Positions 2,880 to 6,960 of a DNA stretch of 9,490 nucleotides are shown in pieces; the stretch's first letter is position 1; every line of letters starts with the position of its first letter. The notes under the pieces were generated by a model that saw only the letters and a list, made by a program, of their open reading frames with translations, was not told the origin of the DNA and did not search any database. The stretch covers positions 1-9,490 of the forward strand of contig QMNM01000034.1 of assembly GCA_003647765.1 (NCBI GenBank). Direction: 5' to 3'. Both the position numbers and the translations under genes were made by a program. This stretch comes from Candidatus Cloacimonadota bacterium. Its GTDB lineage: Bacteria; Cloacimonadota; Cloacimonadia; JGIOTU-2; B8-G9.

Positions 2880-3391
2880 TTGCTCCTTATGACAATTTAA
2901 TAAGGCAAAATTTTCAAGTAATGGGATTTTGGTATAATCCAAATATTCATCCGTATACTGAATATAAAAGGCGTTTGCATGAAGTAAAAAGATTCTCAGA
3001 AAATCATAATTTTAATATTATTTATAAAGATAATTATAAGCTTGAAGAATTTCTTCGCAATGTCGTATTTCGTGAAAATAATCGTTGTCAATATTGTTAT
3101 TATGATAGATTGCTAAATACGGCTATATATGCAAGACGAGGCAAATTTGATTATTTTACTACTACTCTTCTTTATAGTAAATTTCAGAATCATAAGCAAA
3201 TTATTGATATTGCTCAAAGTTTAGCTAATAAATATGGTGTGAAATTTTACTATCAGGATTTTCGGAAACTATGGAAAGAAGGCATTGAATTGTCTAAATC
3301 AGAAAAAATGTATCGTCAACAATATTGCGGATGTATTTATAGTGAAAGAGATAGATATTTAGGGAAAAAGAGCGTAGGGCGTAATGCGTAG
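2834..3391 (+). CDS. queH: Epoxyqueuosine reductase QueH
   Basis: 185 residues. QueH reduces epoxyqueuosine to queuosine in the wobble position of GUN-anticodon tRNAs, a cytoplasmic last step that replaces the cobalamin-dependent QueG. The family (formerly DUF208) is iron-sulfur dependent. All its signatures are visible: CCAPC at residues 10-14, NPNIHPYTEY, Cys85-x-x-Cys88 in RCQYCYYDRL, TTTLLYS, FYYQDFRKLWKEGIELSKS, and the C-terminal Cys165-Gly-Cys167 in YRQQYCGC. Start ATG 2834 has AAGGA in front and places the CCAPC motif at the normal distance from the N-terminus. The final residues SVGRNA and the stop TAG are encoded by the GCGTANN repeat array, so the original stop has been replaced or lost; the catalytic part ends before it (SERDRYLG). 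No other queuosine gene is present in the window. Identification is firm. Confidence 0.96.
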   Translation: MSNKILIHICCAPCLIAPYDNLIRQNFQVMGFWYNPNIHPYTEYKRRLHEVKRFSENHNFNIIYKDNYKLEEFLRNVVFRENNRCQYCYYDRLLNTAIYARRGKFDYFTTTLLYSKFQNHKQIIDIAQSLANKYGVKFYYQDFRKLWKEGIELSKSEKMYRQQYCGCIYSERDRYLGKKSVGRNA

Positions 3392-3427
3392 AGCGTAGGG
3401 CGTAATGCGTAGGGCGTAGGGCGTAAA
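3372..3427 (+). repeat. Array of eight GCGTANN heptamers
   Basis: Eight back-to-back seven-base units GCGTANN (last two bases GG, AT, GA, GG, AT, GG, GG, AA). Positions 3371-3391 and 3392-3412 form two identical 21-base blocks. The third unit contains the stop codon of queH. Because each unit carries TAG or TAA and seven is not a multiple of three, any 21 bases stop all three forward frames, while the opposite strand has no stops. Confidence 0.92.
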
Positions 3428-4180: not shown

Positions 4181-6037
4181 TCAAATTTTCATATCTATCA
4201 AAAACTTTATCTGATTATTGTTGTATAACTTATCAGTTTTCCATAAATCTTCTGCGTATTTAAACTGCAATGATAAATAATTAGTAATACGATATTTTAG
4301 TAATAAAAACCAGAAGAAGCCATCGCCAGAAAATTGTGAATTAAGCATAATACCATCAATATCATTTTCATACATATACAAAGTTATATCATTTGACCGA
4401 TACTGAGTAAAACGAATGAGATTTTGCCATCTTTTGAAAAATACAATCTTTATCTCCTGAAAAAATAGAAACCCATCATCATATTTACTGATTGACTCAT
4501 AATCTTCGTAACTGTATTCAGCCCGAAGCCGCAATCTGACATTCTTCTGTAAATAATGCCAAAAGTCACTTCGTAAACTAGTTCGCTGAAAACTATAAAT
4601 CTTTTTGCTGTCCTCAATGTTCTGATATGTCTCTTTATCCTGATTTCTTACTGTAATTCGGATCTTATTATCTTTCCATTTTTGGTCAAATTGCAGAAAT
4701 TTATCCACTCCATAGGTTGGCATTTTTTCAAAATATCTCTCTTTAGGAAAATTGTATATGTCAAAGTATAGATTTAATTTGCTTTTTTTTGCTGGACGAA
4801 ATAATATCCCATAATAGATACCTTTTTGATTATCATAATTAGAAGAATTGTGAAAAGGATTGCCATGATAGGTTGGAAAATATTTATCGTAATCATAAAC
4901 TATAATCAAATTTTCAAATCTCTTTTCCAGTAATGAAAGTCCGACTAAATATGCTTTACGCCTTTTGCTTCTATCTGTTATAGACATTTCTCCAAAAAGA
5001 CAAAATCGGTTTAATAATAAAGAATAGTCAATTCCAAACAATATCTGTTCTTGTGGATATTCTTTATCAAGAAATGGCTTATCAAATTTATATTTGAAAG
5101 CAGTTAAGCCAATATATTTTTTATTCCCATATTGCAAATGAATTCCGTACAATCGCTCTTCTATAGCATTTTTTTTATCTTTCTCCGTATCAGTGCGATG
5201 GAATCCGGTAATGTCAATATTGTTGATAGAATCATTGATAACACTTGCATCAAGTTTGTATTGTGAATAAAATGGTAAAATGGATAATTTTCGCCATTGG
5301 AATTGACTTGCTCCACCAAATAGAGAGAATGATTCAGCTGTGCTTGTATATTGCTTTAGCATTCCGAAGGACTTGACTGGCTGTCTTGTTGTCTCACCAC
5401 CTTTTGACAAACCAATTTTTGGAGCAAAAAGAATACCTTGTCCAATGGCTAAACGATAATTGCCTATAATTGCTTTTTTGATTATGCCAAAATCCTCTTT
5501 TTGTAAAGATGCGGAACAGAAATCTAAATAGTCATTTTCACCCTCATCTTTTTGAGAAAGCAATGATAAAGTGTAATCATTCCAATAAAATTGATGGCGT
5601 TGATATAATTTTAAGGGATTGTCATAAGGCGAATCAAATTTATTCTGGAAACGAATTCTGCTTTTTATTTGTATTGGCTTGTACATGGCTTTTGTTTGGC
5701 TTTCATTTGTAGGAAAAGTTATGTAAGGTTCAATTTCAGTACAAATTTCTGGAGAAATCCCAGCATCAATCAAATTTTGCATACTTGTAATTAGTTGCCG
5801 TGTACGAAGTTTAATAATTATACTCACTTCTGTTTTGGACAACCAAGGGAATGTAAGTAGCTGTTCTGATGTGGCTTTATTGATGTCTAATTTATCTTTC
5901 TTTAATTGTTGGAGATAGTCATGTAATTCTGTCTCTTTGTAGGTCTCTTCTTCGTTTGTGAATAATTTTTCCAGGTCGCCTTCATCGGCAAGAAGAATGT
6001 ACGGAAATAAAAATATTATTAGGATTAGTTTTTTCAC
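4181..6037 (-). CDS. Secreted helix-hairpin-helix protein with predicted outer-membrane beta-barrel
   Basis: 618 residues from GTG 6037. A signal peptide (VKKLILIIFLFPYILLA, cut about residue 17) is followed by an acidic linker, a ComEA-like helix-hairpin-helix segment at about 50-108 (LDINKATSEQLLTFPWLS onward) and some 500 residues of alternating, aromatic-rich strands ending in FLIDMKI, which looks like an outer-membrane barrel. ComEA-type hairpins bind DNA in the periplasm during uptake. Here the hairpin glycines of the usual LPGIG are Trp and Ser (FPWLS), so DNA binding is doubtful. I know such HhH-plus-barrel proteins only as uncharacterised proteins in Bacteroidota-like groups. The GTG start has AAAAGGAG five bases upstream; a GTG at 6076 would add 13 residues read from a repeat, although AAGGAGG lies ten bases before it. 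It probably shares an operon with the PorV-like gene upstream. The domain call is fairly secure; the function is unknown. Confidence 0.8.
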   Translation of the reverse strand: MKKLILIIFLFPYILLADEGDLEKLFTNEEETYKETELHDYLQQLKKDKLDINKATSEQLLTFPWLSKTEVSIIIKLRTRQLITSMQNLIDAGISPEICTEIEPYITFPTNESQTKAMYKPIQIKSRIRFQNKFDSPYDNPLKLYQRHQFYWNDYTLSLLSQKDEGENDYLDFCSASLQKEDFGIIKKAIIGNYRLAIGQGILFAPKIGLSKGGETTRQPVKSFGMLKQYTSTAESFSLFGGASQFQWRKLSILPFYSQYKLDASVINDSINNIDITGFHRTDTEKDKKNAIEERLYGIHLQYGNKKYIGLTAFKYKFDKPFLDKEYPQEQILFGIDYSLLLNRFCLFGEMSITDRSKRRKAYLVGLSLLEKRFENLIIVYDYDKYFPTYHGNPFHNSSNYDNQKGIYYGILFRPAKKSKLNLYFDIYNFPKERYFEKMPTYGVDKFLQFDQKWKDNKIRITVRNQDKETYQNIEDSKKIYSFQRTSLRSDFWHYLQKNVRLRLRAEYSYEDYESISKYDDGFLFFQEIKIVFFKRWQNLIRFTQYRSNDITLYMYENDIDGIMLNSQFSGDGFFWFLLLKYRITNYLSLQFKYAEDLWKTDKLYNNNQIKFLIDMKI

Positions 6038-6042
6038 ACTCA

Positions 6043-6050
6043 CTCCTTTT
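6043..6050 (-). promoter_or_regulatory. Ribosome binding site deciding the GTG start of the HhH-barrel gene
   Basis: On the minus strand AAAAGGAG lies five bases before GTG 6037. It favours a protein starting directly with the signal peptide over the longer frame, whose extra 13 codons lie in the CCACGAAAACAC repeat and in this site itself. Confidence 0.65.
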
Positions 6051-6084
6051 AGCCACGAAAACACACAAAAAGACACAAAAAATA
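6051..6084. repeat. CCACGAAAACAC-type intergenic repeat
   Basis: AGCCACGAAAACACACAAAA followed by AGACACAAAAAATATG is a low-complexity A/C-rich block related in style to the CCACAGAGACAC blocks elsewhere in the window. On the minus strand it reads as the peptide-like FCVFLCVFVAK, a spurious translation. It lies just upstream of the HhH-barrel gene's ribosome site. Confidence 0.65.
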
Positions 6085-6132
6085 TGCCTCCTTACAGAGA
6101 ATTCATTACAGCACAGGGATTTGAAATTAGAG

Positions 6133-6153
6133 ATTACGCTCTTCGCTCCACGC
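6133..6153 (-). repeat. Three degenerate GCGTANN heptamers directly after the PorV-like stop codon
   Basis: On the minus strand the 21 bases read GCGTGGA, GCGAAGA, GCGTAAT, a decayed version of the array at 3372-3427. They start at the first base after the TAA (6154-6156) of the PorV-like gene and have that gene's orientation. Confidence 0.7.
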
Positions 6154-6960
6154 TTACAATTTACATTCAATTGTGAAAAAGTGAGTAAGATTTAGACATT
6201 GATGATTTTTGACTGCGTAACTGATATTAAAGAACTTGTAGCTAACAGTCATTCCGCCATATATCTCATTTGGTTCTGTCTGAAATCCGCTATTTAATTG
6301 GAAAATTTGAAATGGTTTGTAAGAGACAGCAAAATGATAAGAAAATGGATAATCCAATTCTTTAACAAAAGAAACTGCTGTTGACAGGTTGCCGTGAACA
6401 TTATAAACGATACCTGTGCGACTTTCTTGAGGCAATGTTTCATTATCCAATTTGCTAAAAGTTAAATTAGAAAATGAGGTAAAAATTTTGAATTTGTCAA
6501 ATTGCATCAGAGTTCCAATATCAATTTGATAAGCATTTTTATTCTGAAAAATTGATATGGATTTGTGAAGAAGCCGTCCATTTACACCAAATTTAAGATT
6601 TTTTATAATTTGATAATTAACTGAAACGAGTGCGGTTTGTTCTTTGTATATGTCATTGCCTAAATCTTGTAGAGCCAAAACCATATTAGCATTTTTATAG
6701 CCATAAGCTAACATTGCATTTTTATAAATCAAATCAGGGATGGAAAATGGCTGATAATAAGTGGAAGAGAAATAAAAATTATCTGTGCGAAATACAGCTG
6801 GATTATAGAAACAGGATGCTGGTGAATTTGTTAAACCAGAGATATTGGATAGGCCTGCTAATTCCGCACATGGAGATATTTGTAAAAATGCACATTGGCT
6901 CAGTTTTGGGATGAAGAGTATTACTAAAAATATAAAAAATTTAATGATATATTTTATCAT
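6154..6960 (-). CDS. PorV/FadL-like outer-membrane beta-barrel protein
   Basis: 268 residues. A signal peptide (MIKYIIKFFIFLVILFIPKL, cut near residue 24) is followed by a Gly-rich start of the barrel with LAGLSNISGLTNSPASCFYNPA; the Asn53-Pro54-Ala55 motif near the N-terminus is the hallmark of PorV/PorQ and related FadL-fold outer-membrane proteins. The remainder is amphipathic strands (SVNYQIIKNLKFGVNGRLL, FHFAVSYKPFQIFQL-like pattern) ending in a Phe-rich last strand (FFTIECKL). PorV in Bacteroidota shuttles type IX secretion substrates; other members have no known role, and no type IX genes are visible here. ATG 6960 has AGAGG six bases upstream; the longer frame to 7020 adds 20 residues, partly translated from a repeat. 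The HhH-barrel gene follows 116 bases downstream, the gap being filled by repeats, so the pair may act together in the outer membrane. Confidence 0.78.
   Translation of the reverse strand: MIKYIIKFFIFLVILFIPKLSQCAFLQISPCAELAGLSNISGLTNSPASCFYNPAVFRTDNFYFSSTYYQPFSIPDLIYKNAMLAYGYKNANMVLALQDLGNDIYKEQTALVSVNYQIIKNLKFGVNGRLLHKSISIFQNKNAYQIDIGTLMQFDKFKIFTSFSNLTFSKLDNETLPQESRTGIVYNVHGNLSTAVSFVKELDYPFSYHFAVSYKPFQIFQLNSGFQTEPNEIYGGMTVSYKFFNISYAVKNHQCLNLTHFFTIECKL

Follow-up and report, generated by a model that had tools for sequence, protein, structure and literature searches.

A predicted helix-hairpin-helix outer-membrane barrel and an adjacent PorV-like barrel in Cloacimonadota and other FCB bacteria

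Genes and features at the locus

The stretch of DNA analyzed here (the window) is a whole contig of 9,490 bases from a Cloacimonadota metagenome assembly, whose relatives are named Candidatus Cloacimonadota. Two neighboring genes on its minus strand concern us. One encodes a 618-residue protein that joins a helix-hairpin-helix (HhH) domain to a predicted outer-membrane barrel, and the other, directly upstream, encodes a smaller barrel of the PorV/FadL type. Their features are as follows.

4181..6037, minus strand: HhH-barrel gene, 618 aa, with a GTG start preceded by AAGGAG; full-length orthologues found
5984..6037, minus strand: predicted signal peptide, residues ~1-18 (hydrophobic N-terminus by inspection, conserved in the homologue alignment)
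5714..5899, minus strand: ComEA-type HhH domain, residues 47-108, predicted periplasmic (Pfam, AlphaFold model, profile match to ComEA structures)
5837..5848, minus strand: degenerate first hairpin, residues 64-67, PWLS in place of PGIG (homologue alignment)
4187..5671, minus strand: predicted outer-membrane barrel of 24 strands, residues 123-617 (AlphaFold model, structure match, topology count)
5324..5449, minus strand: predicted extracellular loop linking strand 5 to strand 6, residues 197-238; it is long, and its conservation is high (0.623 vs 0.508 for the whole protein)
4826..4888, minus strand: predicted extracellular loop linking strand 13 to strand 14, residues 384-404, with the highest conservation of all loops (0.688)
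6154..6960, minus strand: predicted PorV/FadL-type 14-strand barrel, 268 aa, directly upstream of the HhH-barrel gene (NCBIfam, fold prediction, structure match, gene order)

In the open reading frame (ORF) reading of the window, the plus strand opposite 4181-6037 is full of stops; the sequence-only note on this gene had named no strand. Querying the contigs of relatives with the single protein sequence returned no homologues; when the search was repeated with an alignment, homologues were recovered. A contig scan with the alignment profile placed HhH-barrel homologues across Cloacimonadota, Bacteroidota (Bacteroidales, including Bacteroides), Chlorobiota, Ignavibacteria and other FCB lineages. 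Because homologues span these phyla, the architecture encoded at 4181-6037 is not a product of chance. A phmmer search of the whole 618-aa protein against the Protein Data Bank (PDB) gave no match. In a literature search of mostly openly accessible papers, we found no paper on the HhH-barrel architecture and none joining type IX secretion with helix-hairpin-helix domains. An earlier sequence-only reading of this DNA had likewise named no established function for the architecture.

Elsewhere in the window, a tandem repeat with a 14/21/42-base unit (ATCAGGAGACAGAA-like) occupies 2748-2827, where ORF 2358-2879 meets the beginning of the QueH gene; this leaves uncertain both the true QueH start and where the preceding ORF ends. 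A second short tandem repeat, with the 21-base unit AGAGCGTAGGGCGTAATGCGT, lies at 3369-3426, where it overlaps the end of the QueH ORF and extends beyond it. An Rfam scan of the window detected no RNA.

A predicted 24-strand barrel with two conserved loops

AlphaFold modeled the 618-aa protein with a mean pLDDT of 81 and 24 strands running from residue 123 to residue 617. An outer-membrane barrel in the C-terminal part had been proposed from sequence, and a soluble, non-barrel fold is not predicted. Of the connections between strands, the 11 with even numbers are short (2-5 residues); the 12 with odd numbers range from 2 to 42 residues and include all the long ones, a regular alternation typical of outer-membrane barrels. 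Given these short even turns and long odd loops, with both chain ends periplasmic in the model, the HhH domain should lie in the periplasm, where the sequence-only reading had also put it.

Among solved structures, the 24-strand usher pore FimD/PapC matches best (Z 17.0, rmsd 3.9, 373 residues, over residues 118-618 of the window protein), followed by porins, MtrB and TonB-type barrels. Together with the topology, this match suggests that the barrel is closed. We take it as a guide to the size and fold of the modeled barrel and not to its function. Identity over the alignment is 7-8 percent, and the window has no chaperone or pilin genes. Chaperone-usher identity was considered and rejected, as neither Pfam nor NCBIfam recognizes an usher family in the protein despite its 24 strands. 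No other long stretches of the barrel are as conserved as the loops at 197-238 and 384-404. Both may fold into the lumen, and the first is a possible plug or gate.

A ComEA-type domain lacking the DNA-contact residues of ComEA

Pfam HHH_3 matches residues 47-107 only weakly (E 0.006, below the cut-off). A profile of the homologous HhH segments nonetheless reaches solved ComEA structures (8dss, E 9e-10; 2duy, 5.5e-4; 8dfk, 6.7e-4), and the AlphaFold model has helices at 57-61, 68-80, 86-91 and 96-105, the helix positions of ComEA, with pLDDT 73-90 in the HhH region. Model and profile agree in assigning residues 47-108 to the (HhH)2 fold of ComEA, and the HhH segment first recognized from sequence is real.

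That reading had also noticed FPWLS where LPGIG is usual. The homologue alignment extends the loss of both hairpin 1 glycines, whose positions are W65 and S67 in the window protein, to the whole family: Cloacimonadota typically have LPWLS and Bacteroidota LPFLS/T (W/F and S/T at the glycine positions), and glycine stands at the second position in 1 of 69 barrel proteins. Since this pattern runs through the homologues of both phyla, the degenerate hairpin is an old trait common to the whole FCB family and not a local accident. Hairpin 2 keeps G93-I94 in Cloacimonadota (G93 in 28/28), the only lineage to retain its first glycine, a point absent from the sequence-only reading; ComEA has glycines in both hairpins.

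In Bacillus subtilis ComEA, where K164, K193, K197 and K199 were mutated, K164A and K199A each lose more than 2 logs of transformation and the other two lose 2-4-fold (PMC9747964). Mapped by profile alignment and lysine spacing, these four DNA-contact positions correspond to E70, E97, E101 and E103 of the window protein, glutamate in every case. Lysine or arginine occupies the K164 position in 0 of 69 barrel proteins. In the soluble ComEA-like proteins of this phylum it does so in 22 of 24 domains, and these also retain the hairpin glycines. Because the K164 position and the glycines are lost in the barrel proteins and kept in their soluble counterparts, this comparison makes it very unlikely that the barrel-fused domain holds DNA as ComEA does. 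The net charge of the HhH segment was tried as a test of DNA binding and dropped as weak; the soluble ComEA controls average only about +1.

The earlier suggestion that the fold has been reused for protein contacts is supported, and the HhH domain may now serve such contacts. There is a precedent in PsbU, an extrinsic protein of photosystem II whose HhH domain plays a structural part. Weak profile matches connect the HhH domain with PsbU chains, although PsbU is soluble and lacks a barrel.

Mean conservation of the HhH domain is 0.52 (0.51 for the whole protein). In a sister family of the same class (f3), the barrel protein has only ~480-550 residues and the HhH domain is undetectable at maximum sensitivity in 15/15 genomes; the upstream partner gene is kept. 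The f3 genomes also retain ComEC, together with soluble ComEA-like proteins that score strongly against HHH_3. As these genomes have lost the HhH domain yet keep both genes, the domain is optional, and the core of the system would be the barrel and its PorV-like partner.

A PorV-like barrel encoded directly upstream

The neighboring gene at 6154-6960 was missed by the sequence-only reading and offers better guidance on function than the HhH domain does. Its product is modeled as a 14-strand barrel (pLDDT 91) with the FadL/PorV fold and its N-terminal hatch. The best solved match is PorV from the type IX secretion system (T9SS) translocon of F. johnsoniae (8gl6_F; Z 31.4, rmsd 2.0, 249 residues), and the next are FadL proteins and BamG (BamG structures Z 23-26). 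By sequence the partner is a probable remote member of the PorV family, scoring 33.5 bits (E 3e-8) against NCBIfam PorV_fam, whose curated cut-off is 90 bits. A profile of the PorV-like family found no match in the PDB by sequence; the relationship is visible by fold alone. The partner falls ~100 residues short of PorV, a difference presumably due to shorter loops, and its N-terminal hatch region carries an NPA motif.

The partner gene lies directly upstream on the same strand in all 25 loci compared and in 14 of 15 further ones, that is, in 39 of 40 Cloacimonadota genomes, often with an overlap of a few bases. In the window the two genes do not overlap and are separated by 116 bases, in which a pattern scan found no terminator. 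This gap (6038-6153) contains an A/C-rich stretch (CCACGAAAACACACAAAAAGACACAAAAA) and may be an insertion or repeat, because the two genes of near relatives touch or overlap.

PorV-family proteins are very numerous in Cloacimonadota, with ~6-17 matches per near-complete genome (G000 to G025) and 11 in the window's own genome, which suggests that the PorV fold has expanded broadly in the phylum. This abundance could make some adjacency coincidental, though not 39 of 40.

The gene pair beyond the phylum

A PorV-like gene is found directly upstream of the HhH-barrel gene in four Bacteroidota loci and in one locus labeled as spirochaete (L102). Neighbor clustering outside Cloacimonadota returned the PorV-like gene as the only widely conserved partner. 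The four Bacteroidales partners group in one clade (support 100/98), although the barrel tree puts their barrels in three different positions; for these trees the simplest account would be an ancestral pair in Bacteroidales that was split several times. Beside most Bacteroidota and Chlorobiota homologues there is no PorV-like gene; adjacency is therefore not universal, and the partner may be dispensable.

At L102 (2915-6726), a PorV-like barrel carries two fused ComEA-type HhH domains, and its gene shares four bases with the one for an 827-aa HhH barrel. The fusion is a direct link between the PorV-like and HhH-barrel parts. Two loci labeled Armatimonadetes (L068) and Neomarinimicrobiota (L087) encode HhH barrels with 36-47 percent identity to those of the Cloacimonadota family, the former also with an adjacent PorV-like gene; these taxon labels may be wrong.

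Could the two genes be neighbors by operon history only, the HhH barrel importing a solute and the PorV/FadL-like protein being an unrelated transporter? FadL relatives are commonly transporters, and the NPA motif of the partner would suit this role. Pfam recognized no TonB-receptor plug domain, however, and linkage in Cloacimonadota, in three Bacteroidales lineages and in the spirochaete-labeled fusion is hard to explain without a joint function. We therefore hold a nutrient porin to be unlikely.

Competence and type IX secretion genes

Competence genes, named by the sequence-only reading as a check on its DNA-related role, are present in part in the window's own genome, which is 89 percent complete. 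A soluble ComEA-like protein and ComEC were found, DprA gave a weak match and a secretin search gave none. A DNA-uptake channel, in which the barrel admits DNA and the periplasmic HhH domain catches it in place of PilQ and ComEA, would suit the coexistence of ComEC and no secretin match in this incomplete genome, the ComEA-type fold and the more canonical HhH domains of the L102 partner. ComEC also occurs in 55 of 59 Cloacimonadota relatives and in 35 of 38 barrel-carrying genomes outside the phylum. Being nearly everywhere, it cannot decide the DNA question by its presence or absence; five barrel-carrying genomes, all possibly incomplete, have no ComEC match. The missing lysines and hairpin 1 glycines, the separate soluble ComEA with intact hairpins and the f3 genomes, which dropped the HhH domain while keeping barrel, partner and ComEC, all weaken a DNA-related role. 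Moreover, a transposon screen in R. anatipestifer yielded a soluble HhH protein and a TonB-type barrel, not a protein of the HhH-barrel kind (PMC8459023). An uptake channel thus seems to us decidedly improbable.

The resemblance of the partner to PorV raises the alternative of a T9SS accessory, with the PorV-like protein as a specialized shuttle or anchor for T9SS cargo and the HhH barrel as a surface platform. SprA exceeds the cut-off in 55 of 59 Cloacimonadota genomes, and the window's genome has a separate SprA. Outside the phylum, each of the four Bacteroidota genomes that carry the pair has a full SprA, and 14 genomes have SprA without the pair; a further 18 keep the barrel with neither SprA nor an adjacent PorV-like gene. 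The resulting contrast (pair in 4/18 genomes with SprA vs 0/18 without; one-sided Fisher ~0.05) is only suggestive, as the genomes are related and not independent, and adjacency of the partner may on this weak contrast be linked to the T9SS. Because 18 genomes keep the barrel without SprA, the barrel itself is independent of type IX secretion. With the partner also ~100 residues short of PorV, we consider an accessory role rather unlikely. Identity with the SprA translocon was rejected: the 618-aa protein has no SprA match in Pfam or NCBIfam, and SprA measures ~2000 aa or more.

A two-barrel complex as the preferred explanation

The reading we favor, with modest confidence, is that the 24-strand pore and the PorV-like 14-strand barrel form a complex with loop gating, the HhH domain having been reused for docking. 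Fold predictions, topology, gene pairing, the loss of DNA-contact residues and the loss of the HhH domain in the sister family were computed. Joint function of the two barrels is indicated by their linkage across Cloacimonadota, three Bacteroidales lineages and the spirochaete-labeled fusion. The PorV-family or FadL-like neighbors of a second HhH barrel in Cloacimonadota, described below, also speak for the complex. In such a complex, the smaller barrel would flank the larger one, as PorV flanks SprA and BamG flanks BamA, and the two conserved extracellular loops would fold inward and gate the pore. The ComEA-derived domain, its DNA grip lost, would dock another envelope protein from the periplasm as an optional part.

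Both precedents combine a large barrel with a small one of the same fold as the partner. In SprA-PorV, the SprA-family proteins of these genomes have ~2000-2500 aa, versus a barrel of ~500 aa in the HhH gene, and this barrel also occurs without SprA. In the Bacteroidota BAM complex, BamA is flanked by BamG, a FadL-family 14-strand barrel (PMC12578637, PMC12611786). The two-barrel arrangement is shared, although Pfam recognizes no POTRA or Omp85 domain in the HhH-barrel protein; for this reason BAM membership, considered because of the BamG likeness, was ruled out. More tentatively, and with less than even confidence, we speculate that, next to the type IX translocon and the BAM complex of Bacteroidota, the pair represents a third outer-membrane machine built from two barrels in the FCB superphylum, consisting of a 24-strand pore, a PorV/FadL-type flank and a former DNA-uptake module turned to docking.

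If the pair is a complex, it would be a widespread outer-membrane machine awaiting study. Homologues in Bacteroides and other FCB bacteria are usually recognizable by their HhH domain only, and the lost DNA-contact lysines warn against annotating HhH barrels as competence proteins.

A second HhH barrel in Cloacimonadota

Cloacimonadota also encode a second predicted HhH-barrel paralogue of ~860-880 residues (L180 466-3048, in the window's own genome; L204 2720-6528). It is assigned as an HhH barrel by sequence, since it resembles the HhH part and the opening strands of the barrel. In the window's order, the gene is preceded by a PorV-family gene of ~290 residues and an ORF of ~100 aa. Across the phylum it is followed by a gene of ~440-475 residues, some members of which match FadL/Toluene_X or PorV_fam.
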